Source of the DNA: Meghimatium bilineatum | Lineage: Eukaryota > Mollusca > Gastropoda > Stylommatophora > Philomycidae | Assembly: GCA_034231615.1 (NCBI GenBank) | Contig: CM067298.1 | Span: forward strand, 27,744,483-27,808,482 | Length of the DNA stretch: 64,000 nucleotides | Direction of reading: 5' to 3' | Part shown: positions 31,084 to 64,000 of the stretch, in pieces | Layout of the letters: every line of letters begins with the position of its first letter | Position numbering within the stretch: position 1 is the stretch's first letter | Translations under genes and position numbers: made by a program | The notes under the pieces: model-generated | Told to the model about the DNA's origin: nothing | Database searches by the model: none | What the model saw: the letters and a program-made list of their open reading frames with translations, nothing else

Positions 31084-31943
31084 TCAATAATTTTCACTGC
31101 GCATATTGTCTTCAGACATTCTAGCACCACTATTGCCTTTCATCAAACTTCTACGTCGGCTCAATGGAGTATGACTGCCAGTGAAAGATATTTCGCGGTA
31201 TTCAGGGCGTCTATTTCTTGAATGAGAATCTTCTTTACTTAGCGAATGCAAACTGATATTATCCAAGTCGTCCCTAGATCTTGATGCAGAAGAATGTCCG
31301 TCAGCAACTGGAGAACAATGTGTTTGAGGTATAAACAACGGTGAGTCTTCATCGGAGCTGTTTTGTGCCTTGTGATGTATGAGTGAATGAGAGTTGGGAG
31401 ATACACTCAGATATCTGTGGGGATCAATTCGTTGATTTGGTGAAGACATCTGAACTTTTTCCTTAGAAATAGGGCTTGACACTTTGCTTCTTCGTCGACC
31501 CTCTTTACGCGAGTCCAAAAAATACTGGACCTCACTACATGATGTGTTCCCGTACGGGATGGGGTGGGTACGACCTCTCACTTCTTTTGCATTTTGATTG
31601 GTTTTTTCATGTTCAGTACCGAATGTTACACAATTACCCAGTGACCTTCTTGAGCAAGTCTTTTGACTATTCATGTTTTCAATAGATTGACGTTGAAAAG
31701 ATGACAAACCAGGAACTCTTGTCCGCTCTGATGATTCTTTGCAAGATCCAGAATGGCAGCCTTTGTACTGTAAGTGTTGATCGTGTGCACGCTGATTTCT
31801 TCTCCTACAACTGTTTTCAGTGAAATCGTAATTCTCATTTAACTTGGATCTCCCAAGAGATTTTTTGTAAGATGGATCGTTGTTTCTTGAGAAATTTAAG
31901 GCAGTTCCATCATCCAACCTGCCCAAACTCATTTGCTGGGCAC
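31084..31943 (-). CDS. Terminal exon of the Cys-rich/Ser-Arg-rich gene
   Basis: A 283-codon open frame on the minus strand, far longer than chance for this base composition. It begins at an acceptor (CATTAACAG|GTGCC) with AQQMSLGRLDDGTALNFSRN and ends HSRNRRPEYREISF, LSRRRSLMKGNSG, EDNMRSENY and a TGA. The product is rich in Ser, Arg, Asn and Asp, has many RRRS/SRRS basophilic-kinase-like sites, and looks disordered; no known domain is visible. The exon needs a phase-1 upstream partner, and the 54-base exon at 45207-45260 supplies it, giving MER-AQQ across the joint. ATG at 31932 could also be a start if this were a single-exon gene, but the acceptor and phase match make the spliced model better. 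Function unknown. Confidence 0.65.
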
Positions 31944-32025
31944 CTGTTAATGAACGAAATGTGTTAATAATAACAAGTTATCACATTTAAATCATCATAC
32001 ATACACATATACATTCTTCTTCTTT

Positions 32026-32185
32026 AGCTTGCATTCTCAAACTCCCGCTGGATCTCCCTTTTAGCAGAACCATTGTTCTACTAGATTTCCAACATGATGT
32101 AGTTCAGAGAATGGAAATGGAAATGCGTTGTGTTGCCGTTTTATTTGCGCCAATGGCCAAACACATCCGTCTTCGGCGGTCAAAT
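32026..32185 (-). mobile_element. SINE family 1 copy with GAA tail
   Basis: In + orientation: TTCTTCTTCTTT tail, GCATTCTCAAACTCCCGCTG, AGATTTCCAACATGATGTAG, GGAAATGCGTTGTG, TTTATTTGCGCCAATGGCCA and ACACATCCGTCTTCGG. The tRNA-like head is absent. It sits just upstream of the 31084-31943 exon in its intron. Confidence 0.8.
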
Positions 32186-32223
32186 ATACATTCATATGAG
32201 AATATTTTATTTGAGATATCACA

Positions 32224-32224
32224 A

Positions 32225-32255
<31 letters not shown>

Positions 32256-32256
32256 G
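32224..32256. repeat. (TAA)n microsatellite
   Basis: Eleven AAT triplets in a row; a C run follows at about 32286-32296. Confidence 0.97.
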
Positions 32257-32801
32257 CCCCCTACTAAAATAAAAGTAATAGTAACCCCCCCCCCCCACAC
32301 CTTCTGCAAGTGATGTATACTATGGTAGTTGTGACTGATTTGAAAACAAATTGTCATTTACATTTTGAGTTCAAATTGTGTATAAGATAGAACATAATAA
32401 TTAACCAAGTGAACATATTCGAATAATTAACAACTAATAGTTAATCAGGCAAAGCAACGATAACTAATCATAGAAGAAATACATGCCACTATTAACTCAA
32501 ACTGTCAACTCACCCGGTAAACAAGGAGTTTTATTCTCGCGAGAATCTAGAGAAGACATAAAGTAACGATGAATTAATTGTCACCATGGAGGAAGTTGTG
32601 AAAAGTAATTCGATTCAAACATCGTATGACTGGAAAAGAGACGACACTAGCTGATGATAATGACTGGAATGTAGTTTTGATTTTAATATCACTATTTGGT
32701 GCTACTATGGCATTTGTTACATAATTCACTGCAAAGTACTAACATATAAATCATGTTTTAACTATTGCACTGCGATAACAATTGTTTTTGTCTTTGTCTT
32801 T

Positions 32802-32941
32802 GTTGTGTGTGTGAGAGAGAGTGAGTGAGTGTGTGTGTGTGTGTGTGTGAGTATGAGTGTGAGTATGTGTGTGAGTGTGAGTGTGTGTGTGTGTGTGCGA
32901 GTGATTGAGTGTGTGTGTGAGTGTGTGTGTGTGTGTGTGTA
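32802..32941. repeat. (GT)n/(GAGT)n microsatellite
   Basis: GT dinucleotides mixed with GAGT and GTGA units. The overlapping ORFs at 32758-33106 on the minus strand are artefacts of this run. Confidence 0.98.
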
Positions 32942-33439
32942 GAATAAATATATATTTGCTTCCAAACAGAAAAATGTATTTGATATATTTCTACAGAAGT
33001 AATACATTGAATTGCTGATAAGAGAAGTGAATGTACCATGCTCCCAGCTGTAGCGAGAGCAGAGATGGCACACGAATATCTTCGCAGAAAAAATAACTTC
33101 CTCCAAGTTTTTTTTTTTTAAATAAGAGACTGCAAAAGAACTTTATAATAAAAAATGTTGATTACTCAAAATAAAAGGTAGTTAAGTAATTACTAGTAAG
33201 AAAAAAACCCCGATAACAGTATAAAGGACATACGTTTTAAACGTTTACATCATAAGTCGAAATCAATGTTTCAATCATAATAAATAAATCGTTGCAGGAT
33301 TTTTCAGTTGTTATTGCTTCCTCTACGAATTTTTAAAGTTTTTATTTCCTGCATTGCCATTAGAACATTACCCAACTAATAAATGAGCATGAGTCAATAT
33401 ATAGAATGCGTGAATTTGGAGTCATCATAGGTGTGGCCC
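32942..33439. other. No gene recognised
   Basis: AT-rich; nothing coding. Confidence 0.45.
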
Positions 33440-33810
33440 GGATCAAGTCAGTAAGAAAGCAACAAACACCAACACAAGATGAATATCACATTATGAACGG
33501 ATCAGAACAAGTTATAATTCTACGCCTCAGAACAGGACAAAACCGACTCCGCAGTCACATGTATACAAAGTTCAAGATTGGCAACATGGCCATCTGTACA
33601 TGTGGACAGACAGCACAGAGTGCCAAACATATACTTCAAGAGTGTTCTGAGCATGAAACGCTGAGGCATACATATTGTCCAGAGAAAACAACACTGGAAT
33701 CAAAGCTCTATGTGACACTGTATGCATTACAAAAGAAAGTGAGTTTTATTCAGGAGACAGAATTACAGATATAGACATGTTTCAAGTGAATGAAAGAAGA
33801 AGAACGCGTG
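33440..33810 (+). pseudogene. I-like LINE, 5'-truncated 3' fragment
   Basis: A 122-codon frame runs SVRKQQTPTQDEYHIMNGSE, QVIILRLRTGQNRLRSHMYT, CTCGQTAQSAKHILQECSEH and ends ETELQI. It is near-identical to 18285-18612 of the full element and here is uninterrupted, so it is the better copy of this domain. The 3' end GTGAATGAAAGAAGAAGAAC matches the parent's tail. It is a truncated insertion, not a host gene. Confidence 0.9.
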
Positions 33811-33889
33811 GCCCGCAGAGAACATTTAATAAAGATTTCTAAAAGAGAAGTGAACCAAAATATAACCGAAACCATGAGTTATATACCGT

Positions 33890-33970
33890 GAGAGATTTAC
33901 TGAGGCGGAGATCTGGGCACTTATGGACATGTCCGGTGTGCGAAGAGGATAATCAACATACCTAATACCT
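33890..33970 (+). pseudogene. Family R LINE 3' fragment
   Basis: VRDLLRRRSGHLWTCPVCEE then DNQHT corresponds to the CPVCSDDDPTTN terminus of family R. Confidence 0.6.
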
Positions 33971-34355
33971 AATATATTACCCAACTTTACTCGTAAAACC
34001 AGTAGTCATTGCATGAACATTGTAGACCTGAACTACAGATATTGCGATACACGGATGGACTAACTACTGGATTTGTCACGTCATAGTACCAAACGGTTCT
34101 AAGAAATCAATGTTGGATTTACCCTAAAAAGTATGTACGAGGCTCGTGCATTTTCAATCTATGCAGGATAAAATTTGTTCAATGACACCATACACAGCTG
34201 GACAAGCTTTCTTCCGGAGCGTCGAAAAAAGTATAGAAAACTAATAGTAAGTATAGGAAATCTCGGCACTGTCTGTTTACAACAGCCTACTACTAGGAAG
34301 TGGGGAATTTTCTAGTTAGTCCTTGAATATATCTAAATATTCGTGCTTGATCTTG
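33971..34355. other. No gene recognised
   Basis: No coding or RNA signal. Confidence 0.45.
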
Positions 34356-34510
34356 GCAATCAATGTAGACATATTTAGCTTCTGTGATTAAACTCAGCAG
34401 TCAATGTAGACATATTTAGCTTCTGTGATTAAACTCAGCAATCAATGTAGACAAACTGAGCTTCTGTGATTAAACTCAGCAGTCAATGTAGAAAGATTGA
34501 AATTCTGTGT
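34356..34510. repeat. 41-bp minisatellite, just under 4 copies
   Basis: Each unit has AATCAATGTAGACATATTTA or AGTCAATGTAGACA followed by GCTTCTGTGATTAAACTCAG. The last copy is eroded. Confidence 0.95.
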
Positions 34511-36528
34511 TGACATCCTCAGCAAGTTGCATTCACGACTTCCCTATCTTAAATCTGCTACCTTTAACTTTCTGTGTATTGGAATGCAATGGACGTTACT
34601 TATCTGCATGTATCTGAAGGTACACCCGTGCACGGCAATACTGTAAACTGCCATACGATAGTCGAGTAGGTACCGCATATCTCTTGTCGATGTGTTTCCT
34701 GTGCACCCAAGAATGATGTAGATAATTATAGAGAAGGATGCACCCAAAAATGAGAGTAGAGCCCGTTAGTTGGACACTTTAAAAGTCATTACTTTATTTT
34801 GCTCAATTGTGTAATTTGCTGGCTTGGTTATGACTACGCTTATGATAATAGTTATGAAAATGACTATCGCATCTACGATATATTTCTTTTTAGGAAACTC
34901 TTCATTACTCCCATGTATCAAAGCTTATGGATTGTGCAAGATTTCACATCATATTTCCAAATGGTCAAGAGTGGAGAAGCAAATTCGAGAACAAAAACGC
35001 ACAGAAGATTCCATAACTCTCTTTCCACCCCACAGAAAAAGTAGATTACACAACTCTAAAAATAAAACGCTGGACACTGCACTCCGAAAATGAAAAGACA
35101 AAAAAAAACATGGAATGGGGAGAGGGGAGCTATATAATGAACCAGCTGGTGTATTTTTATAATTTGCAGTGAATTATACAGCAGTTGTTATATTTCTCTT
35201 TGTATAATGATTTTCTCGCGATATTTATCTGTGATAGTCCCTTGTTAGCTAGCAGTCAGTCGGTTAAGATTGTGGCACAGCCGACGTAGTTATATTACAT
35301 ACATCACTTTATTTCTGGTTGCATCCCTTGGTCTTTACCACTCAAATTAATATCGGACTATATAGCTGCATTTAAAATTGTACGCCTATATATACATAGT
35401 TGAGTGGGAGGTTGTGGTATCAGATTATCTGAACTGGTGATATCATCCCAGCCACCTCGCAACAGTAAATCTCTAGTAGATAATATGCAGTTTATCGAAT
35501 AGGGATTTACTGTTATTTTGTATATTTTATGGTTGACAGCTCCCTCAGCTGTCTTGTCGCATTGGTGATAAGGTTATCTGCATCCTTGAAATGCTGTCCG
35601 TTCAGTGCAGATTATAGTCAAGAGAACAATAAAACTTTAGTCGGTGTAAGGTCGGAAGAATATGGAGGCTGTTCCAAGGTAATCACATTATTATTTTAGT
35701 GGTACTGATTTACCAGTAGGGATTGATGTGCTGGAGAATTTTCATACAGCATAATCCAACTTTTTTTGCTTTTCATGTTTTCCTGAACGTTTTATTCTCA
35801 TTGCATCGCTTAGACGACGAAGGATATTAAAGTTATGTCTTTGAGAGTGACTTCTCCAGAAAAACATGCAATGTGACATTTACACTTTTTGTTCAATCAA
35901 AGATATTTTCAGCTTTGCAACTAAAATAATACACAGACATCTGTATCTTCTCTTCGAGAGTATATGTAAAGGTCATGTCTATTTTGTCCTTTTCTCGAGG
36001 TCATTACCAACTTCTAAACATATAATCTCTATAACAACATCTATCATTCAAAAACTAATCGACTATTCCAGGAACTATTTGAAGCTAGGTAGGTAGGTAG
36101 TTAACGAATTTGTCTCTCTCTAGAGGAGAGGAGTGCCTCTTTCAACCAGCGGACTTAGTCCAATTAGGTTATATCGGGACACAATACCATAAATATTAGA
36201 GGTAACAAAGACCCCCAAGGATTAGTTACTATTTGAAGCTACATCGTATGTTTTCCTCTTATGGAAACCCAAGTAACATTGTATCTATACACTTATCTAT
36301 TTACTCATTCTGAGAAGGAGGCTACTTCTTAAAGTATCGTACACATCTGAGAGTTAGTGCCTTTGGGTACGAAATAAAACTCTAAAACAAAGCTCCCCAC
36401 TGTACAGACATCCACCTTTACCATTTTGAAAATAAGGAGTTAAGCATTGTAAATTATCAATGCACAAAAATATATTTTTAAAAATCACATAAAAATAAAT
36501 GTTCAGACGATTGAAGATGTACCTTTAC
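34511..36528. other. No gene recognised
   Basis: AT-rich stretch with small ORFs lacking family features. A GTAGGTAGGTAGTTAAC run at about 36088-36104 resembles the AACT-type tail of family R. The 36300-36440 part is a diverged copy of about 28230-28400. Confidence 0.4.
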
Positions 36529-36618
36529 CTGGAAGCAACAGGGCGAAGAGGGAGAAACAAATCATGATGTTGACAACAAAAGAATTAATAATGTCAGGCT
36601 TGTTTTCATTAGTGTTCT
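36529..36618 (-). other. Possible membrane-helix exon (weak)
   Basis: Minus strand, ending at a donor CCAG|GTAAAGG. The open frame reads ENTNENKPDIINSFVVNIM then ICFSLFALLLP, either a helix or, from the internal Met, a short signal peptide. Its upstream side is cut by a family R insertion at 36619. Donor phase 1 would fit the candidate exon at 28255-28372. Speculative. Confidence 0.25.
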
Positions 36619-37065
36619 CCCAGTGTTAGTTAGTTAGTTAGTTGTTGGATCATCGTCATTACATTCCGGACAAGTCCATAGGTGCTAAGATCTCTCCTTG
36701 AGTGTATCCGCCATTATACGTTGACTGACAGTCCCAGTACGTCGTTGATTGACCATCATTCTTTCTCGCTCACGAAACCGCTCCTTTCTAGCGACACCAC
36801 ATTTCAAACCAAGCTCCCTTATTCTAGTCATGGAACAAGAGTCATCGTCACTTATACAGTCATTTGTTCGTGAGGTTTTCCGTAGGGCATTCAAAATGTC
36901 TGCTCGATCCATCGCTCCACCAACAGCCGTAGTAGCAGCGTGAGCGGCTAACCTATCCGCCATCTAATTACCCCGGACTCCTGCATGTCCCGCACAAAAA
37001 TAAAAGTCACTCTGCGCACGCAGGATGCATTCACTGCATCCAGTCACTACTCCCGAACGTACCCG
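36619..37065 (-). pseudogene. RNase H LINE fragment (family R)
   Basis: Minus strand: FYFCAGHAGVRGN, MADRLAAHAATTAVGGAMDR, GLKCGVARKERFRERERMM, VNQRRTGTVSQRIMADTLKE and LWTCPECNDDDPTT, then a 3' tail of repeated AACT (+ strand TTAGTTAGTTAGTTAG at about 36629). Close relative of 56151-56626. One stop separates the RNase H end from the MADRLA part. Confidence 0.85.
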
Positions 37066-37144
37066 TGTGAAATGTATCCGCAATGTCTCAGACAAACAAG
37101 GTTATGTTCTTAAATACAAATGTGAAGTATGTAGGCATAGGTGA

Positions 37145-37512
37145 TTTTTGTACTTTGACACGTGGATGCTGAGGGAAATAAAAGGACAGACAGACTTGCC
37201 AGCGTGATTACAGTGACTAGTGACAGTACATTCGACCATTCTTATGTTTTTAATGCAATCATGAGCTGAACCAACTGGTATATATGGGGCGTATTTCTTT
37301 TTCTGTATGTATAGCTAGAATACAGGACCTGGAAGTGAAGCGTGGTGTTGCAAGACACGAACGACATATAGGAATCAAAAGAAGAGTTATCAACCAACAC
37401 AGAACCGGAACAGTCATTTAACACATGCTGAAAAACATACTTAATATAATATTGGAACACATATGGACTTGTTCGGAGTGTCATGATGTTGAACTGACGA
37501 CTAACTAACTAA
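37145..37512 (+). pseudogene. RNase H LINE fragment (family R)
   Basis: The + strand, over broken frames, gives EGNKRTDRLAS, ARIQDLEVKRGVARHERH, VINQHRTGTVI and LEHIWTCSECHDVELTTN and a stop, then an ACTAACTAACTAAAT tail. It lies head-to-head with the family R copy at 36619-37065, with 80 bp between their 5' ends. Confidence 0.75.
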
Positions 37513-37649
37513 ATGTAAATGTATTGTTTAATGACTTTGAAAAATTGTATGTAGCCTAACCTAGTAAGTCACTGCAAAACTACCTTTATTTATTAATAGA
37601 TATCACCGTAATTTACTTCCCAATTAATGGCTATAAGTGATATCAAATG

Positions 37650-37925
37650 ATGAATTGTAGAAGAAAACACACCAGCTAGAGATCAAACCTTGAAAATGGA
37701 GATGGATAGGACATACCCTCAGACAGAAACTTTACAACATAACTAGACCGGCCTTAGACTTGAATCACAACGAAAGAGGATATGCGGAAAACTGATGAGT
37801 ACTTATAGAAGAACAGTGGAGGAAGAGACCAAATGAACTAGGACCTCGTGAACATAGATGATGAGGACAGTGCAGTGAAGAAACTGCTGTGGTGGGAAAG
37901 CTGCAATCATATGGCCTACAGGTAG
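37650..37925 (+). pseudogene. LINE RT C-terminal fragment
   Basis: Frames on the + strand give WRWIGHTLRQ, LYNITRPALDLNHNERGYAE, EEQWRKRPNELG and GKLQSYGLQ. This is the R.WRWIGHVLR......R.AL.W...GKR.RGRP..TWRR..E.E....G ending of a widespread LINE RT group. Frameshifted and truncated. Confidence 0.7.
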
Positions 37926-38366
37926 ATATAATGATATAGATTGTAAATGATAAAGTGCTGCATGGTTGTGACAACTGAATATTATGTAGTCTCTGGTTAT
38001 TTCCTCCTCTATATCAGAGTTATGAACGGACATCATTGCATTCCGGCAGACCCATCGGTGCTAAATCGCCAGCAAATGTCGCACGGCATGCATGCTAATG
38101 GTTCCTATAGGTCGCTAGTAATTCACTCATCATTCTACCCTGTATTCTTCCAGTTGTACTAATTGAAATATCCAAGTTAATATCAAATTCTCCGAATCTC
38201 AGTCTGGATATCTCGTCAATTTCGTTTCCCGCATCCAGCAGGTACTTGTGAAACAGTTACTTCTACTGTAGGTAAGATTGAGAATGATCGACTCTCCAAT
38301 TCTCTTTCCAGCCTGTGCCATTCATGTCATGCCACGTTCGAAACACGTGCCCTTTAGCTCATGAAT

Positions 38367-38602
38367 AGGGAATCTCCCTAACGAAGTGGATAAGCTATTC
38401 GCCTTGTGTTAAAGAGGTCATGGGTTCGAATCTGGTTCCACACCGAAGACGGATGTATCGGGCCATTGGCGCAAATAAAACTGTTACACACCAAATTTCC
38501 ATTCTCTGGAATACATCCTACTGGAAATCTAGTAGGACTGCGATCCTGCTGTAAGGGAAATCCAGCGGGAGTTTGAGAATGAACGCTGAAGAAGAAGAAG
38601 AA
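38367..38602 (+). mobile_element. SINE family 1, complete copy
   Basis: Head: AGGGAATCTCCCTAACGAAG with A box CTAACGAAGTGGATAAG and B box GGGTTCGAATC, from a tRNA. Body: ACCGAAGACGGATGTATCGG, CCATTGGCGCAAATAAAACT, ATTCTCTGGAATACATCCTA, TGGAAATCTAGTAGGACTGC and GGGAGTTTGAGAATGAACGC. Tail: GAAGAAGAAGAAGAA. This copy defines the family. The 3' third is shared with SINE family 2 and the tail with the I-like LINE. Confidence 0.9.
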
Positions 38603-42020: not shown

Positions 42021-44498
42021 CAGGCATGTCAAACGTGCGGCCCGCGGCCCGCATGTGGCCCTTTGCAAGTACGTGTGCGGCCCGCACAAAGAATACTGCA
42101 ATTGTCTCATTTAATGGTGAAAATTGCAGTTTTAATACTTTAAACTGGGTGTAGAAAACATAAATCTGGCATAGTGCCACGTATAAGAAAACAATACGGC
42201 TATTTTAAGCTAGTAATGGTTTTCTATCTATGACAATTGACCGGAAGTAGCAGACAGGTTGTTATTGACATGTTAAAATTTTAAAACAATAATAAATTTT
42301 ATCTTGTGGATTCGTGCCGGTAATTATATTATTTGTTTTAATGAAGTACTGCATAAACTGACCCCGTTTAAAATGGCTACAGCACCTTCAGCTAAGAAGA
42401 AAAGGACACTTGATGAAGAAAGGCAAGTATTTCAAGAAAAATGGGAACTACAGTATTTTTGTGCAATGGTAAATGGAAAGATACATTGTTTAGTATGTAA
42501 TAACAGCATTGCCACGTCAAAAGAGTACAACTTAAAAAGACATTATGAAACCAACCATCGATCCTGCGACAAATGTAAGAGCTTAATACGTGTTTCAAGA
42601 CTCCATGAACTGAAGCTAACTTAATACAGCAACAGACATGTTTTACAAAAATAGATCAATCCAATGGCGCTTCCGTTACTGCAAGCTATGAACTCAACCG
42701 AATGGTCGCCATGAGTAGGCAATCTTATAGTGAATGAGATTTCGTAAAGCATTGCCCTGTAAAAGCTGCTGACATTGTGTGCCCACAGAAAGCACAGTTA
42801 TTTAAGGATATTTCGTTAACCAGGAACACTTTTGCTGGACGGATTGGCGAAATAGCAGATGATTTGAAACAACAGTCTGCATCATCCAAATTTGAACTTT
42901 TTTCTATTGCTATTGATGAGACCGTTGAAATCACTGGAATAACACAACTTGCATTTTTTTTATTAGGGACAGTGAATTTAATATTTATGAAGAACTGATT
43001 GAACTAGTCCCAATGCATGAGATTACAGCGAGCGAAGACATCTTTGAATAAGTCGAGCAGGTTCTGCATGACATTGATTTTGATTTGAGTAAACTTGTAT
43101 GTTTATCTACTGACGGTGCTGCGAATATGGTTGGCAGACATAATGGTGTTGCTGCGAAGTTGCGAACAAAAATTGAGAACTCGTATCCAGATTCATTATT
43201 TGCACATTTTCACTGCATTATTCTTCAAAAAAATTTGTGTTCAAAGACTTTAAAATTGAATAACTTGCTTAGTGTTGTCACAAAAACAGTAAACTTTATC
43301 AAATGCAATGCTCTCAACCATCGTCAGCTCAGTTAGCTGTTAGAAGACATGAATAGTCAGTTCACCGATGTACTATTCTACACAACAGTCCTTTGGTTGT
43401 CGTGTCACAAAGTGCTGAAAAGATTTTATTTCTGAGACCAGAAACTACTTTATTTTTCGAGATTAAAGGTAAAAACACTGATGAAATACAAGATGAAAGT
43501 TGGGTCCAGGATCTAGCGTTTGCTGTGGACATTACTGCACATTTAAGTGATCTAAATTTGAAATTACAAGGGCAAAACAAACTCATCACTCAGTTGTACG
43601 ACAACATCAAGTATTTCATTACAAAACTAAGCTTATGGAAGACACAGTTGTCACGTGAAAATTTGATTCATTTTCCTAACTGCAAAGAACTCAAAAACCA
43701 GGCCAATGCTGAATCTGTACTTACCTCTGCTAAATATGAGAGACACCTAGAGTTATTGTCAGAAGAGTTCCAGAAAACATTTAGTGATTTCTCATCGTTT
43801 GAATACCATTTTGCATTATTCTCTGCACCATTCAACTGTGATGTTGTCAATGCAGAAGAAAACTTGCAGATAAAGCTATTAGAAATGCAGTCTGATTCTA
43901 CACTCGAAGCAAAGTATCTAGAAGTCGGGATACTTGGCTTTTATTCATACCTTCCTAAAAAGTTTACAAACTTCAGAAAGTTTTCAACTAGGATTGTGGC
44001 AATGTTCGGTTCCACCTATGTGTGTGAATAGTTATTTTCCTTCATGAAACTAACAAAAACTTCTCAGAGAATAAGGCTGACCGTGGACACTTGTCATCCC
44101 TGCATTTCAGCCACATATACATTTCAGCCAGATATACGAAAAATTGTCATGAAAAAGAGGCATCAAACCTCAGGACAAAACACGGATTAAAGAGTAAAAT
44201 TGATTGATTGTTCTTAAATAAATGTTGGATTTCACTCCTCAGGTCACAACACTGACTAAACAGTGCAAATAATTGAATGTTCTTAAATAAATGTTGCATT
44301 ACAATTGTTATATTTGGCGTTGTGGGGCGTTAGCTTAATAAAACCGTTGTAGTAGGCGTGCAAATTAATTAAATATAATTAAATAAGATTTAATAAGATA
44401 TAATTCAACAGTGTTTCTCAGATTTGTTGGTGTGGCCCGCCGGTATACTCAAAGTATCATATGCGGCCCATGGTGTTTTTTTGAGTTTGACACGCCTG
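42021..44498 (+). mobile_element. hAT transposon with TIRs and 8-bp duplication
   Basis: The element starts CAGGCATGTCAAAC and ends GAGTTTGACACGCCTG, inverted termini of the CAG..CTG type common in hAT elements. Subterminal GGCCCGC-rich words appear at both ends (GTGCGGCCCGCGGCCCGCAT at the left, GTGTGGCCCGCCGGTATAC and ATGCGGCCCATGG at the right). ATCTATAG flanks both sides (42013-42020 and 44499-44506), the 8-bp duplication expected of hAT. The cargo is a decayed transposase of the ZBED5/GTF2IRD2-like type. Confidence 0.93.
42304..44190 (+). pseudogene. hAT transposase (BED finger, ZBED5/GTF2IRD2-like), decayed
   Basis: From the ATG at 42373 the frame reads KKKRTLDEERQVFQEKWELQ, YFCAMVNGKIHCLVCNNSIA and KEYNLKRHYETNH, a BED-type zinc finger (CLVC and H-x4-H). 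After a stop at 42622 and frame changes come ISLTRNTFAGRIGEIADDL, FELFSIAIDETVEITGITQ (first acidic site, DET), LVCLSTDGAANMVGRHNGV (second Asp in TDGA), FAHFHCIILQKNLCSKTL, WVQDLAFAVDITAHLSDLN and LKLQGQNKLI, and the C-terminal dimerisation block VAMFGSTYVCE, stop, LFSFMKLTKTSQRIRLT. Stops at about 43048, 43333 and 44029 and at least three frame changes kill it. Domesticated relatives exist in vertebrates, but this copy is a simple fossil. Confidence 0.9.
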
Positions 44499-45206: not shown

Positions 45207-45260
45207 GTTCCATACATGGGCCCAGTCGTCTTGATTTTTCATAGAAATTCTCAGAAGGAC
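45207..45260 (-). CDS. 54-base internal exon of the Cys-rich gene
   Basis: On the minus strand this segment has both a good acceptor (GTTTTGCTTTATCCAG) and a consensus donor (GTAAGTATAT). In the frame set by its neighbours it reads PSENFYEKSRRLGPCME flanked by split codons: the upstream exon gives the G of a Gly codon (G|GT) and the downstream exon completes CGT (Arg). 54 is a multiple of three, so the exon is symmetrical and could be skipped without changing frame. A second frame is open (VLLRISMKNQDDWAHVWN), so translation alone is not decisive; splice sites and phase are the evidence. Confidence 0.6.
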
Positions 45261-49589: not shown

Positions 49590-50515
49590 GCGTCATAGCA
49601 GACGGTTTCCTATAAGTGTTCAGCTGCCTAGTCAGTGGTTGAGATAGAACACGGATTCCCATAATTGTTCAGCTGTCTAGTCAGTGGTTGACATAGAACA
49701 CAGTTTCCCATACGTGTTCAGCTGCCTAGTCAGTGGTTGACATAGAACACAGTTTTCCATAAGTGTTCAGCTGCCTAGTCAGTGGTTGAGATAGAACACG
49801 GATTCCCATAAGTGTTCAGCTGTCTAGTCAGTGGTTGAGATAGAACACAGTTTCCCATAAGTGTTCAGCTGCCTAGTCAGTGGTTGACATAGAACACGGT
49901 TTCCCATAATTGTTCAGCTGCCTAGTCAGTGGTTGAGATAGAACACGGATTCCCATAATTGTTCAGCTGTCTAGTCAGTGGTTGACATAGAACACAGTTT
50001 CCCATACGTGTTCAGCTGCCTAGTCAGTGGTTGACATAGAACACAGTTTTCCATAAGTGTTCAGCTGCCTAGTCAGTGGTTGACATAGAATACAGTTTCC
50101 CATAAGTATTACGCTGCCTAGTCAGTGGTTGATATAGAACACGGTTTCCCATAAATGTTCAGCTGCCTAGTCAGTGGTTGACATGGAACACAGTTTCTGA
50201 TAAGTGTTCAGCTGCCTAGTCAGTGGTTGACATATAACAAGGTTTCCCATAAGTGTCCAGCTGCCTAGTCAGTGGTTGACATAGAACAAGGTTTCCCATA
50301 AGTGTTCAGCTGCCTGGTCAGTGGTTGACATAGAACACGGTTTCCCATAAATGTTCAGCTGCCTAGTCAGTGGTTGACATAGAACACAGTTTCCCATAAG
50401 TGTTCTGCTGCCTAGTCAGTGGTTGACATAGAACCGATTTCCCATAAGTGTTCAGCTACCTAGTCAGTGGTTGACATAACAAATGGCTTCCCATAAGTGC
50501 TCAGCTGTCTAGTAA
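49590..50515. repeat. 49-bp minisatellite, about 19 copies, with higher-order repeat
   Basis: Unit: GTTTCCCATAAGTGTTCAGC, TGCCTAGTCAGTGGTTGACA, TAGAACACG. Most units differ at one to four positions. The variant order starting with GAGATAGAACACGGATTCCC at 49641 recurs at 49935, exactly 294 bp (six units) later, so a six-unit block was duplicated. Confidence 0.95.
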
Positions 50516-50862
50516 GTAGTTTGACAAGAAACCGCTTGACTAAGGTCACCTACAGGACCTGCCAGTAGCCAATGCACCATTAATTTCTCGACCTTCCCAT
50601 AATTTTTGACCATTGTACCGTACTTTCTGGTGCTGAGTGAAGCGCTAGAGCAAATTAAGAATAAATTTCGAACCACGAATGCCTCGAAACCCAGGTTTGT
50701 TGGCAAGTTGATGAATAACTGAACATTACCACATGACGACTGCCAATGATGATGATGATGATTTATGATGTTCCTCCTTCGCAAGCGAAGATGAGCATGG
50801 CATGAAAAAACATTAAATGCGATGGAAAAATATTATATATAATAATTAAAATTGGTAAATAA

Positions 50863-52569: not shown

Positions 52570-53325
52570 TTGCTTCATCATTCAATCGATACTCGGTTCA
52601 TTTTTCGTGTACCATTAGAGAGTGTTGCGATGGCTCATGTTGAATGCTTCAGGTTTCGTGTACCATTAGAGAGTGTTGCGATGGCTCATGTTGAATGCTT
52701 CAGGTTTCGTGTACCATTAGAGAGTGTTGCGATGGCTCATGTTGAATGCTTCAGGTTTCGTGTACCATTAGAGAGTGTTGCGATGACTCATGTTGAATGC
52801 TTCAGGTTTCGTGTACCATTAGAGAGTGTTGCGATGGCTCATGTTGAATGCTTCAGGTTTCGTGTACCATTAGAGAGTGTTGCGATGGCTCATGTTGAAT
52901 GCTTCAGGTTTCGTGTACCATTAGAGAGTGTTGCGATGGCTCATGTTGAATGCTTCAGGTTTCGTGTACCATTAGAGAGTGTTGCGATGGCTCATGTTGA
53001 ATGCTTCAGGTTTCGTGTACCATTAGAGAGTGTTGCGATGGCTCATGTTGAATGCTTCAGGTTTCGTGTACCATTAGAGAGTGTTGCGATGGCTCATGTT
53101 GAATGCTTCAGGTTTCGTGTACCATTAGAGAGTGTTGCGATGGCTCATGTTGAATGCTTCAGTTTTAGTGTACTAGCAGAGTGTGTTGTGATGGTTCATA
53201 TTAATTGCTTCAGTTTTCACGTATCAGCAGATGGTGTTGCGATAACTCATCTTACATACTTCAGTTTTGAACCTTTAGCCAAATTTGTTGCGGTCTGTGA
53301 GTCTATATATCGATCTATTCGCTAA
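52570..53325 (+). CDS. Open 251-codon frame of 17-residue repeats (hypothetical)
   Basis: A 51-bp unit encoding FRVPLESVAMAHVECFR is repeated 11 times, nearly without change (one unit has AMTHV). Three degenerate units follow in the same register: FSVLAECVVMVHINCFS, FHVSADGVAITHLTYFS and FEPLAKFVAV, then a stop. The period is a multiple of three, so the array stays open automatically, and the frame could be a by-product of a minisatellite. In favour of coding: the eroded units also keep frame and hydrophobic pattern without a stop. Against: no splice context, no recognised domain and no known family. ATG at 52570 is the first in frame; it gives no clear signal peptide. Protein status unproven. 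Confidence 0.3.
   Translation: MLHHSIDTRFIFRVPLESVAMAHVECFRFRVPLESVAMAHVECFRFRVPLESVAMAHVECFRFRVPLESVAMTHVECFRFRVPLESVAMAHVECFRFRVPLESVAMAHVECFRFRVPLESVAMAHVECFRFRVPLESVAMAHVECFRFRVPLESVAMAHVECFRFRVPLESVAMAHVECFRFRVPLESVAMAHVECFSFSVLAECVVMVHINCFSFHVSADGVAITHLTYFSFEPLAKFVAVCESIYRSIR
52609..53165. repeat. 51-bp minisatellite, 11 copies
   Basis: Unit: TTTCGTGTACCATTAGAGAG, TGTTGCGATGGCTCATGTTG, AATGCTTCAGG. Copies are almost identical, implying recent expansion or ongoing homogenisation. Diverged copies continue to about 53280. Confidence 0.97.
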
Positions 53326-53344
53326 ACCCTTTATTGCCTTTCAG

Positions 53345-54505
53345 CGTCTGTTGTCTATTGTCTTTCCCCAGGTGAATGATTGTTGATCGCATTCACACTT
53401 GCCGTTAAGCGTAGGGGTGGTAGCTTAAGCTGTCGTTTCAAGGCCAAATGTGTCGCCAAATGTGTCGATACATGATATTATACCAACTCTTTTCCTAATT
53501 TCTTCATTTCTTATTTTATCTAGTTTGGTAACCATTGCAGTTTTTCTCAGACACTTCATTTCACATGTGACGATTTTTCTTTGCTGCGAAGCTGTTAAAG
53601 ACCATGTTTGACATTGGTAGCACAGTGTTGGTATAAAAATTGTAGATATTATTTGTTTTTTAATTTCCATCTTGATCTTTGGATGAAGAAATAATGGTGA
53701 AAGTTGGTAAGTCACTGTGTTTGCTTTCTGGCACCTTGTTTCTATTTCTCTGTCTAGTCTTCCATCTTCGAAAAAAATGCTGCCTATATATTTGAATTCT
53801 TTCGCTTGTTTCACTTTGGTGTTATCTATTGTTATATTCATTGGTGTTGAAGACTTGCTAATTTTCATAACTTCTGTTTTCTGTAAATTAATTTTCATGT
53901 TGTACTTCTGACATGCTAACAGCAATGCATTGATGTGCTTTTGCAAAGTTTCCTCATCTTTGTACATTAGACTTTGATCATCGGCAAATAATAGTTCATT
54001 GATTTCATTATTAAGTTCCTCATCAGGTTTATTTGCAATGTTTTCCTCTTTGTTGATATGAGCTTCTTTTATTATTCTGTCCATTTATATGTTGAAAAGT
54101 AGGGGTGAAAGTACGCATCCTTGTCTTACTCCAGATCTTGTTTCAAAAGGTTCAGTCATTCCATCTGTTGTTCTTGCTGAGCTTTGGCATTTTTGATATA
54201 TCGCTTTTATGTTATCTAACAGTTGTCCTTTGATATATATTTCTATGGTTTCCCATAGAATGTTTCTATCTACTCTGTCGAATGCCTTTTCCTGGTCTAC
54301 AAATACTGTGTTTAAATCTTGATTGTATTCGATTGATTTTTCGCTCAGTTGTCTCAGTGTGAAAAGTGCGTCTGTACAGCTTGCTACCCTTCTGAAGCCA
54401 AATTGAGAGGGGGTCAACTGTGGTTCTGCAATATATCGCATTCTCTGTTCTATTATTTTTGCATAGATTTTACCTGTGTGACTTAATAAGGAGATGCATC
54501 AGGAT
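53345..54505 (-). pseudogene. Non-LTR reverse transcriptase (family C)
   Basis: Minus strand from 54505: SHTGKIYAKIIEQRMRYIAE, LTPSQFGFRRVASCTDALF, TVFVDQEKAFDRVDRNILW (catalytic motif A), SGVRQGCVLSPLLFNI, a TAA at 54085-54087, then NELLFADDQSLMY (FADD box), KINLQKTEVMKISK and FKYIGSIFFEDGRLDREIET. Below 53430 the 3' end carries the same CACCTGG...GACAATAGACAA tail as the copy at 12000. Only one stop interrupts nearly 340 codons, so it is the better copy. 5'-truncated: no endonuclease. Confidence 0.85.
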
Positions 54506-54554
54506 GCTTTCAGCGTCAGGGGTAGAATAGTTCTCTGGAGAAGGCCCTCATATT

Positions 54555-55059: not shown

Positions 55060-55129
<70 letters not shown>

Positions 55130-56150: not shown

Positions 56151-56626
56151 GTTAGCTAGTTAGTCGTCGGATCATCATCACTGCAAACTGGACACATCCA
56201 TAGTTGCTCCGATCTCACCTTGAGTGTATCCGCCATCACACTTCTGCTGACAGTACCGGTCCTATGCTGGTTGACCATCATTCTTCTGCGCCCTCCAAAA
56301 TGTTCACCTCTAGCAACACCGCATTTCGATCCCTGATCTTTAATCCTAGCCATTGAAACGGAATCATCATCCACATTCGTCTCACTCTCGCGTGTGATAT
56401 CTCTTAAGGAGTTCAAAACGTCAGCGCGATCCATTGCCCCATCGCCCTTTGCTACAATCGCACACGCTGCCAGCTGATCCGCTCTCTCACCGCCCCGAAC
56501 GCCCACATGTCCCGGCACGAAAATAAATGCAACCGCTTTCAAGCTCGCATTTCTCAAGGCCTCAATCCACTGTTCGCGAACGAGACCCACCCGTACCTTC
56601 CCAATCACACCCACATCTTGGGTGAC
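56151..56626 (-). pseudogene. RNase H LINE insertion (family R), with target duplication
   Basis: The 13-mer TCCAGTCCTTTTA lies at 56138-56150 and at 56627-56639. Between them the minus strand is open for 152 codons: VREQWIEALRNASLKAVAFI, FVPGHVGVRGGERADQLAA, SKCGVARGEHFGG, VNQHRTGTVSRSVMADTLKV and LWMCPVCSDDDPTTN and a stop, then a 3' tail TAACTAGCTAAC. It holds the end of an RNase H domain plus the C-terminal domain with a CPVC pair. It is a young, 5'-truncated retro-insertion and the reference copy for family R. Confidence 0.92.
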
Positions 56627-56869
56627 TCCAGTCCTTTTATTTTGATATATTAAAAACAGTTGATGAAAACGTCGATAATGTTAATATATAGAAATTAAAT
56701 TACAACTCATTTCTTAACTGGGTTTTTTCTATAACCAGCAATCAATAAGGTCAATTGGTTTCAAATAGTAATCTATGTGTGTCTGTATGATAGTAGTATA
56801 TCTTGTGAATAACTGAACTATGAACAAGATATCTTTTATGGTTTTCAACACATAATTGAAATATCTAAA

Positions 56870-57360
56870 TGTACTTACAGCTAACTGCAGAGAATGGTGT
56901 CCCATGACTGTGCAGCAAGAGATGCAGACTTTGGTCAGTGAAAATGCCAAAGAGGGAGTTGTGATTATATACACTGATAGATCTGTGATTAGACATGTTC
57001 GTAGTGCTTGGGTCTTCACAGCTCAGTGCGCAGATAAGAAGACCAGGCAGGAGAGTGGGACCTTATCTGTGACTACGAGTAGCATGACCATGGAGATTAT
57101 GGTGGTGACCAGGGCATTTGAGTATGTAAGCACAGAGAAGGTAACACGGGTCTGCAATTTGAGTGGCTCTATGAGTGTGATTAGGTAGGTACAACTGGGT
57201 CTCGTTTGCGAACAGTGGATTGAGGCCTTGAGAAAATCGAGGCTGCAAAGTGTTTACATTTATTTTCGTGCTGGGATATGTGGGTGTAGAGGAAAGGAAA
57301 GAGCAGATCAACTGGCGTCATGCACGATTATGGCGCTGGACATGAGGTAATGTATCGAGC
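56870..57360 (+). pseudogene. RNase H LINE fragment (family R), RNase H domain
   Basis: The + strand gives EGVVIIYTDRSVIRHVRSAW (the first Asp of YTDGS with G changed to R), SVTTSSMTMEIMVVTRAFEY (Glu) and, after a stop near 57185, CEQWIEALRKSRLQS and CRGKERADQLAS (last Asp). This shows that family R has a full RNase H domain upstream of the part seen elsewhere. Dead fragment, head-to-head with 56151-56626. Confidence 0.75.
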
Positions 57361-57596
57361 TGACGGTCTGAACGGTCTGAGAAGGTTATGTTAAATTGAA
57401 TTAGCATGTTTTTTGGAAAGTTTGCAGATACATTAAAATCTTTGCTCTTTGTAATATGAAGTGTTTGATTCAGGGCCACACATTTTTTGAGGGGAGGGGG
57501 TGGTGGTTGACGGCTCTTAACACCCCCTCATAATGGAAACAAAACATTAAATCTATCTTTTTCGTGGGGCATAACATGTAACGGAAAGGATATAAC

Positions 57597-57600
<4 letters not shown>

Positions 57601-57652
<52 letters not shown>
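57601..57652. repeat. (TA)n microsatellite
   Basis: Uninterrupted TA run. Confidence 0.98.
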
Positions 57653-57654
<2 letters not shown>

Positions 57655-57716
57655 CATATGGAATTAACATATCGGTAATTTGGGCATTATTGACGATCTT
57701 TTTCTCTAGGAGTCTT

Positions 57717-57971
57717 TTGTTTATTTATTTTTGTCGCAAAACCCAAACTATATTCCAGATTTGGTTGTTTTGAGTGGTCTCTATTCAATATAAAAAATTC
57801 AACCTATGTTTCAGGTTTTGTTGCTTTGGTGTTCTCTTTCCAATTAAAAACTCAACCTACGTTACAGGTTTTGTTATTTGAATGTTCTTTCTAATAAAAT
57901 AAAGGCAATAGTTATTCTAGGTTTTGTTGTTTGAGTGTTCTCGTTCCAATTAAAAACTCTACCTACGTTAC
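57717..57971. repeat. ~57-bp tandem array, left part
   Basis: Units read CCTACGTTACAGGTTTTGTT, ATTTGAATGTTCTTTC, TAATAAAATAAAGGCAATAG or CAATTAAAAACTCAA. At least four units. The array continues at 61236-61500 after the RTE insertion. Confidence 0.9.
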
Positions 57972-58369
57972 TTGGACTTCCGGTAGCAACATGGCTCAAT
58001 TTTGAACGTTATTCACTCAGTCGTCACTTGAGGATTATTTTATTATATATTATCGTATTATGTGTTATTTTAAGTGAATGACTAATAACTAATGTGCAGA
58101 AAATTTCTTGTGTGTTTTCTATTGGGGAAAGTTGAATATTCCTGGAGGGGAGTCTGGAGTTTAGTCGTTAATTGTGCCGTCATGATGTTCGCTAGGAACG
58201 AACAAGGAAGCGACCGATAGCCACCGGTATAAGTGGTAGCTCTACAACTGGGCAGGGCGGGGCACCCATTTGTCCCGACATAAAATATTGTCAAAGGGAG
58301 CGGATATAAATGGATATCCCCCATATGGATGTGGAAAGCAACGGGAAACTACCACATTATTCTCCCAAG

Positions 58370-59374
58370 ATGAAAGTCATGGCGACACACAGAAGTAGAC
58401 CTACAGTTAGTGTTAATATAGCAACATGTAACGTCAGATAGTTAGCGCAGTGTGGTAAATTAGACAACATCAAGCAAGAAATGGAAAGAATGAAAATAAA
58501 AATCTTAGGAATGAGTGAAATGAGGTGGACTGGGGCAGGAGAGATACAATCAGATAAATTTAAAGTCATATACTCAGGAGGACAAAAACACGAGAGGGGG
58601 GTAGGTGTATTATTAGACACAGAAACAGGAAAAACGGTGAAGGGTTTTATGGCAATATCAGATCGGGTAATATTAGTTAAACTACCAGGAAAACCGTTGG
58701 ATATCAACATTGTGCAGGTATATGCACCCACATCAAGCAGTTCAGAGGAGGACATCGAAATTTTCTATGAAGATCTAGAAATCGCAATGAAACAGTGTAA
58801 AAATCAGGAAGTAACTATAGTAATGGGGGACTTTAACGCAAAAGTAGGTGAAACAGAAATAAAAGATGTGACAGGAAGATTTGGTTTAGGAACTAAGAAC
58901 GAAAGAGGTGATTTATTGATAGAGTGGGCACAGGCACATAATTTAATAATAGGGAATACATGGTTCAAGCAACATCCAAGAAGGCTGTGTACATGGATTA
59001 GCCCAGGTGATAATACTCGGAACCAAATTGATTACATTTTAGTCCCTAAAAAACATAGAAACAGCATTAGATCTATGAAAACAAGACCAGGTGCTGACTG
59101 CAACAGTGATCATATACTACTGGTAGCGAAATTGTGTATAAGATTAAAGAAGATCAAGAGAGCACCAAGGAATATGAAATTAGATTTAGTTTTATTGAAA
59201 TCAATTGCTGACATTAAAGAAAGATACAACATAATTGTACACAATAGATACAATGCCATTGCAAAGATTCAGAGTATTGAAGATCAATGGAACATGCTAA
59301 AGCAGTCGATAAACCAAACATCTAAAGAGATAATACCAAAAGTAAAACACATCAAAACAAAAATTGATGACTGA
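58370..59374 (+). pseudogene. RTE endonuclease region
   Basis: From ATG 58370: MKVMATHRSRP, VNIATCNVR, stop (TAG 58439-58441), then KLDNIKQEMERMKIKILGMS and EMRWTGAGE (catalytic Glu), IVQVYAPTSSSSEEDIE, TIVMGDFNAKVGE (Asp and Asn), RFGLGTKNERGDLLIEWAQ, RLCTWISPGDNTRNQIDYIL and RPGADCNSDHILLVAKL (final Asp-His). All active-site motifs of an AP-type endonuclease are present. An ATG at 58481 could start a shorter product, but it would lack the N-terminal Asn strand. The frame ends with KIDD and TGA at 59372. Confidence 0.92.
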
Positions 59375-59387
59375 AGAAATATTATAA

Positions 59388-61230
59388 TTGATAAGCACCA
59401 GAAGGAAAAATAAACATAAGATAGCGGAATATCAGAAAATACATAAGGAGATACGAGAGAAATGCAAAATAGCAAAAGAAAGCTGGCTGAACAAGAAATG
59501 CACAGAAATAGAATTGCATTACAACCAAGATACAACATTACTATATAGGAAAATTGAGATGATAACAGGAAAGAGAACGCAAACAGTTACAGGGTGTCTA
59601 AAATCTAAGACAGGGCAGGTATTAATGGGAATAGATCACATAGTACAGAGATGGTCAGAATATATCAAAGAACTTTATGATGACTATAGACCAGAAATAA
59701 ACATACAAGATAACGGCGAGGGTCCATCAATACTCACAGCAGAAGTAAGGGAGGCACTACGATACATGAATTATGGCAACGCCCCAGGTCCAGACAATAT
59801 CACATTAGAAGAATTAGCAGCTTTAGATGACTTTGGAGTTGAAATAATCACAAAATTGCTGAATGACATATATAACAGCGGAAACATACCCGATGACTTA
59901 ATGAGGTCCATATTTATAGCCTTACCTAAGAAACCAGGGACCTCCAAATGTGAAGAATACCGTACAATCAGCCTCATGAGCCAAATAACCAACATACTTC
60001 TCAGAATCATCATGAAGAGAGTGAGAAACTAAATAAAATCAGAAATAAGTCCAGAACAATGTGGATTTGTAGAAGGCAAAGGCACCAACAATGCGATTTA
60101 TATATTGAGAACACTAATAGAGAGGTCTATAGAGGTAAAAACAGATCTGTACCTCTGTTTTATAGACTACACTAAAGCATTTGACAAAGTTAAACATAGC
60201 GAAATTATACACATTCTAGAGAATCTGAATATTGACAGCAAGGATTTAAGAATAATCAAGAACATGTACTGGCAACAAACAGCAGCAATAAGAGTAGGAA
60301 ATCAATTTGGCCCTTTTAAACAAATAAAACAAGGAGTCAGACAGGGATGCGTGCTTTCACCAGACCTCTTCTCTTTATACAGTGAAAACATATTGCGTGC
60401 AATAGTAGATATCCCAGGAATATCAGTGGGAGGACATAAAATAAATAATTTGAGATATGTGGATGATACTGTTCTGATTGCAAAAAGTGAGGAAGACCTT
60501 CAAAATTTAATTAAAGTAGTAGTCACAGAAAGTAAAGAGAAAGGCCTCTTCCTAAATATCAAGAAAACAGAAGTAATGGTTATTTCAAAGAAAGAAAATA
60601 ACACACCTTGCAAGATCATAGTGAATGATATAGTATTAAAACAGGTCCACCAATTCAAATATTTAGGTACAATGATTACAGCAGATGGAAGAAGTTCAAC
60701 AGAAATAAGATGCAGAATAGGACAGGCAAAAACAAAATTCAGAAAAATGAATAATATACTGTGTAATAAGACCTTGTCATTAGAGGTGAGAAAGAGAGTT
60801 CTGCAGTGCTATATAACCCCTATACTAACATATGGGTGCGAGTTTTGGACAATAAACAAACTGGAAAGTGGGAGATTGGAGGCAACAGAGATGTGGTTCT
60901 ACAGAAGAATGCTGAGAATACCATGGACTGCCAGAAAAAACTAATGTACAGGTGTTGAAAGAGTTCAATGCGAGACGGACCTTAATCAACAATATAAGAA
61001 AAAGGCAATCTTCTTTTTTTGGCCACTTCATGAGAAAGGCAGGTTTAGAGAACATAATCACAACAGGCAAGATTGAAGGCACCAGAGACAGAGGACGAAA
61101 ACGTGAGAAAATATTAGACAGTTTGACAACCTGGCACGGCAAGGAAACAACAACGACTTTGATACATAATACTGTGGACAGAGAGCTGTGGAGAGCCATG
61201 ACCGCCTACGCCACCCGGCATGGCACCTGA
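59388..61230 (+). pseudogene. RTE reverse transcriptase region
   Basis: From about 59388, another frame: KKCTEIELHYNQDTTLLYRK, MNYGNAPGPDNITLEELAAL, IALPKKPGTSKCEEYRTISL and then TAA at 60030-60032. In the same frame: PEQCGFVEGKGTNNAIYILR, LYLCFIDYTKAFDKVKHSEI (motif A), GVRQGCVLSPDLFSLY (B), LRYVDDTVLIAKSEEDLQNL (YVDD box, C), FKYLGTMITADGRSSTEI and FYRRMLRIPWTARKN. A frameshift at about 60945 leads to SSFFGHFMRKAGLENIITTG, KIEGTRDRGRKREKILDSL and RELWRAM, ending with a TGA at 61228. Catalytic Asp residues are kept; the frame is not. Confidence 0.92.
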
Positions 61231-61235
61231 TGATG

Positions 61236-61500
61236 ACCTACGTTACAGGTTTTGTTATTTGAATGTTCTTTCTAATAAAATAAAGGCAATAGTTGTTCCA
61301 GGTTTTGTTGTTTAAGTGTTCTCTTTACAATTAAAAAACATAACCTTTGTTCCAGGTTTTGTTAAGTTTTCTCTTTCCAAATAAGATACCCAACCTATGT
61401 TCCAGGTTTCGTTGTTTGAATGTTCTTTCCAATTAAAAAATTAAACGTATTCTCCAAATTTCGTTGTTTGAGTGTCCTCTTTTCAATTAACCAGCATACA
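61236..61500. repeat. ~57-bp tandem array, right part
   Basis: The first ~60 bases repeat those at 57855-57915 almost exactly (CCTACGTTACAGGTTTTGTT, TTCTTTCTAATAAAATAAAG). Several more units follow, increasingly diverged. Confidence 0.88.
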
Positions 61501-61517
61501 GTTTCTTCTAATGTGAT

Positions 61518-61547
61518 AGCCAGAGAGAGAGAGAGAGAGAGAGAGTG
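61518..61547. repeat. (GA)n microsatellite
   Basis: GA run after the array. Confidence 0.95.
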
Positions 61548-61649
61548 AATACATTATGACAGGATTTCTTCCTGTCATATAAACCTACCCCAAATATTTG
61601 CAAAATTCCTCTGATTCAGTTGAGCTTCTCTAGAATGCCGATAGGAGTT

Positions 61650-62380
61650 GGCTGGCTAGCTTCTTCATCTTATTTCGTAGGCATGGAACGTGCTTATATA
61701 TAAAGTTTTGTTGTTTCTTCTGGGAACGTGACTGTTTTGTAATTCGTACAGAGATCCGTTGAGTTTTTGTTCTACTTTTGTCTCTCTTGACAATTGTATG
61801 TGCCTGATAATTTCATATGTCGGGTATTTCTGAAGAATATGCTCGGCTGTCTGAGGTGCCTGTCCACATGCATACATGTCCATGTTGCCAATCTTGAACT
61901 TTCTATACATGTGGCTGTGGTCTCGATTGTGTCATGTTCTGAGGCACAGAATGACAATGTGGTCTGGTCTGTTCATAATTGGTAGTCATCTTGTATTGGA
62001 GTTGGTTTTCTAATTGCCTTGATCATCTATTTATTTTAATGGTACGTTATTGGCAGATTTTTTTGATCATTAGCAGCACCCTCCTTAGCCAGCCGATCTG
62101 TTTTCTCGTTTCCAGATATTCTGTTGTGCGATGGTATCCACTGCTTAACTGCTTTACACTGATTGCTTCATTCGGTCAATAGTATTTATAGTTCTGGTAG
62201 TTTTCTAGATTAGAGAACTCGGTGTACTGATCTTACATCTGTCAGTAATACTACCAGCTGTGAACCAAGGTTGGTCCTCAGCGGTTTTTCAGTTGCCACC
62301 TTGACAGTCTGGATTTCTGCTATCACCAACAATTCTCTTAGACTTGGAGACTAATCTGCCCCTGAGTGATAGTTTCCTGT
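61650..62380 (-). pseudogene. I-like LINE, RNase H and C-terminal fragment
   Basis: Minus strand: QWIPSHNRISGNEKTDRLAK then EGAANDQ (RNase H end), broken text, then HMYRKFKIGNMDMYACGQAP, QTAEHILQKYPTYEIIRHIQ and SLYELQNSH, parallel to 18150-18610 (HSHCGIPGNEKADQLAK; CKCGQAAQSAKHILQEC). More diverged than the copy at 33440. Confidence 0.8.
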
Positions 62381-63247
62381 GTGAAAAGGATAGGCAGGAA
62401 GATGGACTCAGTCAATTACGTATATCTTGTACCAGGTGTTCAAGTTATGTTTTCTGATCTCCCGTGATTAGATGACACAAAGCTTTTTGTGTCAACGCAT
62501 ACGAAGCTATTTATCACATACGGATCTGGTTTCGTTATAGGAGATTATCGACTATAGTACTAGACTACGGTTCTATCTGATGTTTCTTTCTCCAACATTG
62601 TGATGCCATTGTCAAAGTCCACATTCCTACACATATTTTGTTTCTGTGGACTGGAACTATTTGACATCATGCCAATTTCTTTATAACTTTGTTTATAGAA
62701 GATGACTAAGAACTCATTCTCGACCAGTACCATTGACTTGATCATGACTTCTGTAGTTAATTGTTTTGAATATACCGCATCATGCCATAAGCGCTTCCCT
62801 CAAGCATCGTGCTGTCGTTGTCTTAGACAGTACCCAATAAAAATAACCTGCTCGACATGTCCGAAGTTAGCTCATTAATATTGCCAACTCGATCTAAAGG
62901 CATGACAACATAGCTCTTTTGGCCAGTTTTTGTCTTATGATGTGCTGGGACAGTGTTTTTGTGTGAGATGTATTAATCAGTGATGCAAGTTTTCTTGTTC
63001 GCAAACAATTCTCATTGCACCTCAGTCTAAGCAGCTCGGACTCGATTCCCATTTTGTGTGTCAGGTGTTTTTGTAATAGCATTGAAAAACTACCTGATAT
63101 TTGAAGGTGCGTTGTGAACTTGACTATTTACTAACCCTGGTATTAGCACTATAGCATTGTAAAGACATTTGCTTGGCGGCCCAGTTTTCAATTCATACTT
63201 AAGATACATGTAAGATATTATCAATGAACTCAATCATTTACTATTAC
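62381..63247. other. No gene recognised; intron of the Cys-rich gene
   Basis: A minus-strand 62-codon ORF at 62894-63082 has no family signal. Otherwise AT-rich intron-like sequence. Confidence 0.4.
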
Positions 63248-64000
63248 CTGAACTGTTGTCGTATGGCAGGCAGTGTCTGGGATGACAAGGTTCACGAATT
63301 CTACTGTTGCAAGGTCCACAGACGGATGAATAGCATGGTTTACTAGGATCACAAAATGTACGTGCCATGTTGGACTCAAATGTTTTTCGTCGTCTTGGTG
63401 TACAGCACAAATCACACTTCTGTGGACAACATGGGTCACACTTTGGTAAGTCACAAGGGATGCAGGACTCCCACTTAGGTTTATAATTTGGTCTTGTTGG
63501 ATAACAAGGGGTACATGAGTTCCACTTAGGCCGATATGACGATATAGGTGCATCACAAGGGATGCATGAATCCCATTTTGATCGATAAGAAGGTCTGCAA
63601 CTCCAAGGATAGCACGAGTCACATTTATCATATTTTCTAGGATAGCAATAATCCCTTCCTGTGGGACACGTATCACACGGGCGTGTAAAACACGAGTCAG
63701 CTATGCACGGGTAGGACAATGTACTTGGGAGATATTTACATCTCAGAGTTGAACCACATCTACGTGACGCGCAGCATTTACGAGTAGGACGATCACCAAA
63801 GCAGCATGTTCTTGCCTGACAAGGACCAAGTGTTGTTGAGATATCTGTTCTGCATCTGGGAGAACAGCCAGAAGTAATCGGTTTGCAGACATCACATAAA
63901 GAAAGCGATTCTCGGACATCATAAGGGCTTGGGTGATGTTCATAGAATTGTCGTACAGGTCGTTTTGGGCTTAGAGATCGGCACCGCCGTCTAGGTAGAC
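63248..64000 (-). CDS. Cysteine/proline-rich exon, gene continues past the window edge
   Basis: An uninterrupted minus-strand frame of about 250 codons runs in from the right edge with about 38 Cys. Near the edge it reads RRRCRSLSPKRPVRQFYEHH, then LCDVCKPITSGCSPRCR and ARTCCFGDRPTRKCCASRRC. The middle holds three spaced repeats, KWDSCIPCD, KWNSCTPCY and KWESCIPCD, about 18-19 residues apart, in CxxC-Pro context, then CDPCCPQKCDLCCTPRRRK and CGPCNSRIREPCHPRHC. Either the exon ends at CAG|GTAATA (63248), my preferred reading because it matches the phase of the next exon, or the frame ends at TGA 63234-63236 (GNSK). Paired Cys with Pro and basic residues recall structural proteins such as sperm outer-dense-fibre or keratin-associated types, but I see no true homologue. 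No transmembrane helix; the start lies outside. Confidence 0.75.

Follow-up and report, generated by a model that had tools for sequence, protein, structure and literature searches.

The minus strand of a 64,000-nucleotide stretch of the Meghimatium bilineatum genome (the window) holds two long reading frames, one rich in cysteine (A) and the other rich in serine and arginine (C), and the question they raise is whether both belong to one host gene and what kind of protein such a gene would encode.

Frame A is stop-free from base 63998 to a TGA at 63236–63234, a length of 254 codons, 250 of which precede a proposed donor site (GTAATA) that is followed 11 bases further by the in-frame TGA (63234..63247), such that the protein would end there if the donor is unused. 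The corresponding exon (63248..64000, minus strand) is incomplete at the window edge, and the Cys-rich frame described in the first-pass annotation is present and open throughout, with 38 cysteines in its 250 codons. Five acceptors scoring at least 0 lie inside A between 63998 and 63601, and the exon could begin instead at the best of these (63855, scoring 6.6); the residues before 63855 also include Cys and Arg. An overlapping alternative frame of 156 codons (63230–63700) was set aside as the shorter of the two, on length alone. Frame C, also on the minus strand, extends over 297 stop-free codons between 31977 and the TGA whose last base is 31084. The 860-base terminal exon proposed for it (31084..31943) comprises the two bases left over from a split codon, then 285 complete codons and the stop, with an acceptor at its 5′ end, and both the frame and the acceptor are found as claimed.

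In order-3 Markov simulations of the window (n = 60) the longest stop-free frame did not exceed 242 codons (median of the maxima, 149), and base shuffles of each of the two stretches gave an equally long frame in none of 2000 trials. This limit of 242 codons is passed by three more frames, two of them in retroelement sequence (310 and 303 codons) and one in a 51-base minisatellite (256 codons), so length alone is not proof of a host gene. The presence of several retroelement frames, and of a minisatellite that by itself yields so long a frame, would favor reading A and C as functionless, either decayed or derived from transposons. However, both are open throughout, neither matched a transposon domain, and tblastn (E up to 1) found no second copy of A or C in the window; we regard this explanation as very improbable. 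One 40-residue tblastn match of C within the window (E 0.76) is taken as chance. The GC content at third positions is similar in A (0.32), C (0.34), and the candidate middle exon B discussed below (0.29), as would suit a single gene. That A and C are two minus-strand coding exons is well supported.

Eight frames from a listing of 160 were scanned together against Pfam, and five of the seven that lie between A and C match a family; those recognized among the scanned frames in this interval are all of retroelement or transposon type. Endonuclease and reverse transcriptase matches (58442–59374 and 60033–60944, plus strand) fall in the first and third of three open pieces of a non-LTR retroelement spanning 58442–60944, and two frames at 53425–54498 (minus strand) match reverse transcriptase. 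A Spin-doc zinc-finger match (42277–42624, plus strand) begins a segment extending to 44031 that includes a downstream 224-codon frame with no Pfam match; the segment as a whole is perhaps a decaying hAT-like transposase or a derivative of one. An RNase H match at 56156–56680 (E 0.0026) is under its cut-off. Transposon-type frames of this kind suit a long intron equally well as intergenic DNA. Two minisatellites are also present in the interval, one with a 49-base period (49594–50530, 19.1 copies) and the other with the 51-base period noted above (52603–53268, plus strand, 13.1 copies), which lies within a single 256-codon frame of 17-residue repeats that is kept open by the repeat period and is not clearly a gene. 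Beyond C, a RING-finger exon (23312–23510, minus strand; zf-C3HC4_2, C3HC4, Pfam E 9.5e-10) with an acceptor TTTTAG and a donor GTAAGT probably comes from the host gene that follows downstream, likewise on the minus strand. ARAGORN calls no RNA genes in the window, and the sole Rfam match is tRNA-like (5060–5132, minus strand, 34.1 bits), perhaps a tRNA-derived SINE.

The link between A and C was examined by scoring splice sites with a simple general animal splice-site table, which is crude and also insensitive, as the very likely real RING exon (23510–23312; acceptor −1.1, donor 4.2) would fail by it. The donor at 63247 scores 2.9, a value equaled or exceeded at 70 of the 3673 GT dinucleotides on the minus strand; only one other donor within frame A scores at least 0, and it is the weaker. 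At the acceptor before 31943 the score is 4.3 (equaled or exceeded at 68 of 3477 AG dinucleotides on that strand), and no other acceptor between 31990 and 31701 scores at least 0. Both sites are phase 1, and joining A, B, and C generates a single continuous frame of 554 residues plus the stop, the split codons at the two junctions reading Gly and Arg as had been predicted. Among 161 stop-terminated frames of at least 70 codons, a set that includes A and C, a donor of such a score lies near the 3′ end in seven (~4%), two of these being A and the overlapping frame that shares its donor, and an acceptor of such a score lies near the 5′ start in seven (~4%). The one-gene link is drawn from the equal phase of A and C, a 1-in-3 coincidence, together with these end splice sites, and is unproven. 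On the minus strand between A and C, 28 acceptors are as good as that of C (that of B included), so A could join elsewhere.

The proposed middle exon B (45207..45260, minus strand) is 54 bases long with splice sites at both ends in phase 1-1, and the frame is kept if it is skipped. In the interval between A and C three phase 1-1 candidates on the minus strand score at least as well as B (B included) and four do so on the opposite strand, and the remaining 31 kb contributes one on the minus strand and none on the opposite. Fifteen order-2 Markov simulations produced three such candidates in all, and by this control B looks better; real DNA is preferred as the fairer control. With three candidates of equal or better score on its own strand (itself among them) versus four on the other, B does not rise above chance and is rejected as a proven exon, its splice sites notwithstanding. 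The annotated gene of more than 33 kb and at least 550 residues is thus borne out in its two coding exons and its continuous frame but not in the A-B-C join, which is plausible and unproven.

That B does not exceed chance also suits an arrangement of two genes. A Cys-rich protein would then have A as its final exon and stop at the TGA at 63234, and C would belong to a separate gene, whether intronless with its start at an ATG at 31932 or preceded by further exons of its own. The in-frame TGA just beyond the A donor would make a plausible C-terminus, and AGTAAA is present 101 bases past it, but neither AATAAA nor ATTAAA occurs within 1 kb of this stop. At C, an ATTAAA is located 185 bases 3′ of the stop, and the ATG is in frame and 11 bases beyond the acceptor, but it has a weak context with C at −3. 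A and C are also unlike in composition, as two genes might be, whereas each ends at its best splice site and in equal phase. We consider two genes a possible, if somewhat doubtful, arrangement. The reading that we tentatively favor is that A and C together make up the 3′ portion of a single host gene, encoding a fast-evolving, cross-linked structural protein, likeliest of the sperm flagellum, with a disordered tail. One or more long, transposon-bearing introns would then separate A from C, and B would be a small and possibly optional exon.

The Cys-rich head has a pattern beyond its composition. Its 250 residues include 34 Pro, 29 Arg, and 29 Ser in addition to the cysteines, and C-x-P occurs 16 times versus 5.1 expected, a count reached in none of 5000 shuffles. 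C-x-P-C occurs five times versus 0.8 expected (reached in 3 of 5000 shuffles), and C-x-C is absent where shuffles predict 5.6. The excess of C-x-P and C-x-P-C and the absence of C-x-C thus indicate an ordered arrangement rather than mere abundance of Cys and Pro. C-x-x-C is weakly enriched (9 versus 5.6 expected; 394 of 5000 shuffles reach 9), and the description of the head as CxxC-Pro repeats is therefore imprecise, being apt for the strongly enriched C-x-P but not for CxxC. Three imperfect tandem copies of a 17-residue unit, spaced at 51 bases, are present at 63451..63596 (minus strand) with the core Tyr-x-x-Lys-Trp-x-Ser-Cys-x-Pro-Cys. The pairwise base differences among them are 16, 17, and 21 (54 in total), with eight in each pair (24 in total) at third positions, a share that hints mildly at coding constraint. 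Between two paired 8-residue units in A there are eight base differences, four of them at third positions.

Exon C is Ser/Arg-rich in composition (Ser 49, Arg 31, of 286 positions with the stop counted), without being an SR-repeat domain: SR/RS dipeptides number 13 versus 10.6 in 5000 shuffles and are not enriched. Its 285 residues include 46 Lys plus Arg versus 32 Asp plus Glu. The tail had been described as phosphosite-rich, a weak claim, as S/T-P lies above the shuffles (6 versus 2.8 expected; 190 of 5000 reach 6), but RxxS/T (5 versus 6.6) and basic-basic-x-S/T (2 versus 1.6) are not enriched over 5000 shuffles. A single-sequence structure model of C has a mean pLDDT of 42.4 with no residue at 70 or above, which is compatible with disorder but cannot prove it. 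The corresponding model of A has a mean pLDDT of 33.1, again with no residue at 70 or above, though modeling of this kind often performs poorly on Cys-rich proteins. Together with the lack of any Pfam domain above cut-off in A or C, these models would fit a disordered protein.

No relatives of A or C were found in Pfam (with no match for A up to E = 1), NCBIfam, or PDB, nor in IMG/VR or GTDB, viral and prokaryote collections in which an animal gene would hardly be expected. Pattern scans of the latter two for A and C touched 1, 2, 19, and 40 stretches, none of which was confirmed by tblastn. As the genome collections covered were viral and prokaryote, the absence of relatives says little. A Pfam match of C to ALMT (E 0.64, below cut-off) and PDB matches of C to choline-sulfatase (E 1.5 and 1.6) were taken as chance.

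The annotation's remark that it knew of no family with this layout overlooks two systems in which Cys-x-Pro is repeated; both are analogues, and kinship is not implied. In mammalian ODF1/HSPB10 the C-terminal domain carries C-x-P repeats and the N-terminal domain a putative leucine zipper, and the protein is expressed in the testis, especially in spermatids; although described as testis-confined, it has been found in kidney ducts as well (PMC8913478). In the Drosophila sperm proteins of the Mst(3)CGP family (Mst84D, Mst87F) the repeat is Cys-Gly-Pro, and the axoneme is abnormal when the Mst84D genes are deleted (PMC10645079). The repeated C-x-P is shared with ODF1, but ODF1 also has an alpha-crystallin (HSP20) domain, for which there is no Pfam match in C or, up to E = 1, in A, the N-terminus of the head lying beyond the window. 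Furthermore, the C-x-P motifs of ODF1 are in the C-terminal domain whereas here a Ser/Arg tail may follow the C-x-P head, and the 17-residue repeat is a further difference. The likeness to Mst(3)CGP is likewise in the repeated Cys-x-Pro, but one Cys-Gly-Pro is found among the 16 C-x-P motifs in the 250 residues of A, in contrast to the repeated Cys-Gly-Pro of that family, and A does not qualify as a member. The best reading is that the head has a motif pattern with known analogues and may work as these do, relatedness not being implied.

If A and C are joined in one gene as we favor, the Cys/Pro/Arg-rich head would be cross-linked by disulfides or zinc to form a stiff fiber or sheath that the disordered Ser/Arg tail would tether or regulate. 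The likeliest site would be the sperm flagellum, in dense fibers or the fibrous sheath, or some other stiff sperm structure, a tentative assignment made by motif analogy alone. A single gene might also encode a head of another kind, either an extracellular, cuticle- or capsule-type cross-linked protein or a metal-binding protein, with no role in sperm. Cys-Pro-rich repeats are also found in secreted structural proteins, and the N-terminus and any signal peptide would fall outside of the window, but the basic, Ser-rich tail looks intracellular, and we think this unlikely.

Outer dense fibers and a fibrous sheath have been seen by microscopy in octopod sperm (Octopus vulgaris; PMC11753710). In the literature covered we met no protein named for the octopod dense fibers, and neither 'outer dense' nor 'ODF' occurs in the main text of PMC6341066, PMC11202624, and PMC12691039. 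A more specific and rather improbable proposal is that the gene encodes a lineage-restricted sperm-tail or sheath protein fused to a long disordered tail, its C-x-P repeat chemistry having evolved independently of that in mammalian ODF1. Should A and C be merely two ordinary orphan exons, they would have little significance. If instead the head is that of a dense-fiber or sheath protein outside the vertebrates, it would suggest that Cys-x-Pro cross-linking for stiffening of the sperm tail arose more than once, and it would offer a candidate gene for study in those animals in which dense fibers are known by microscopy.
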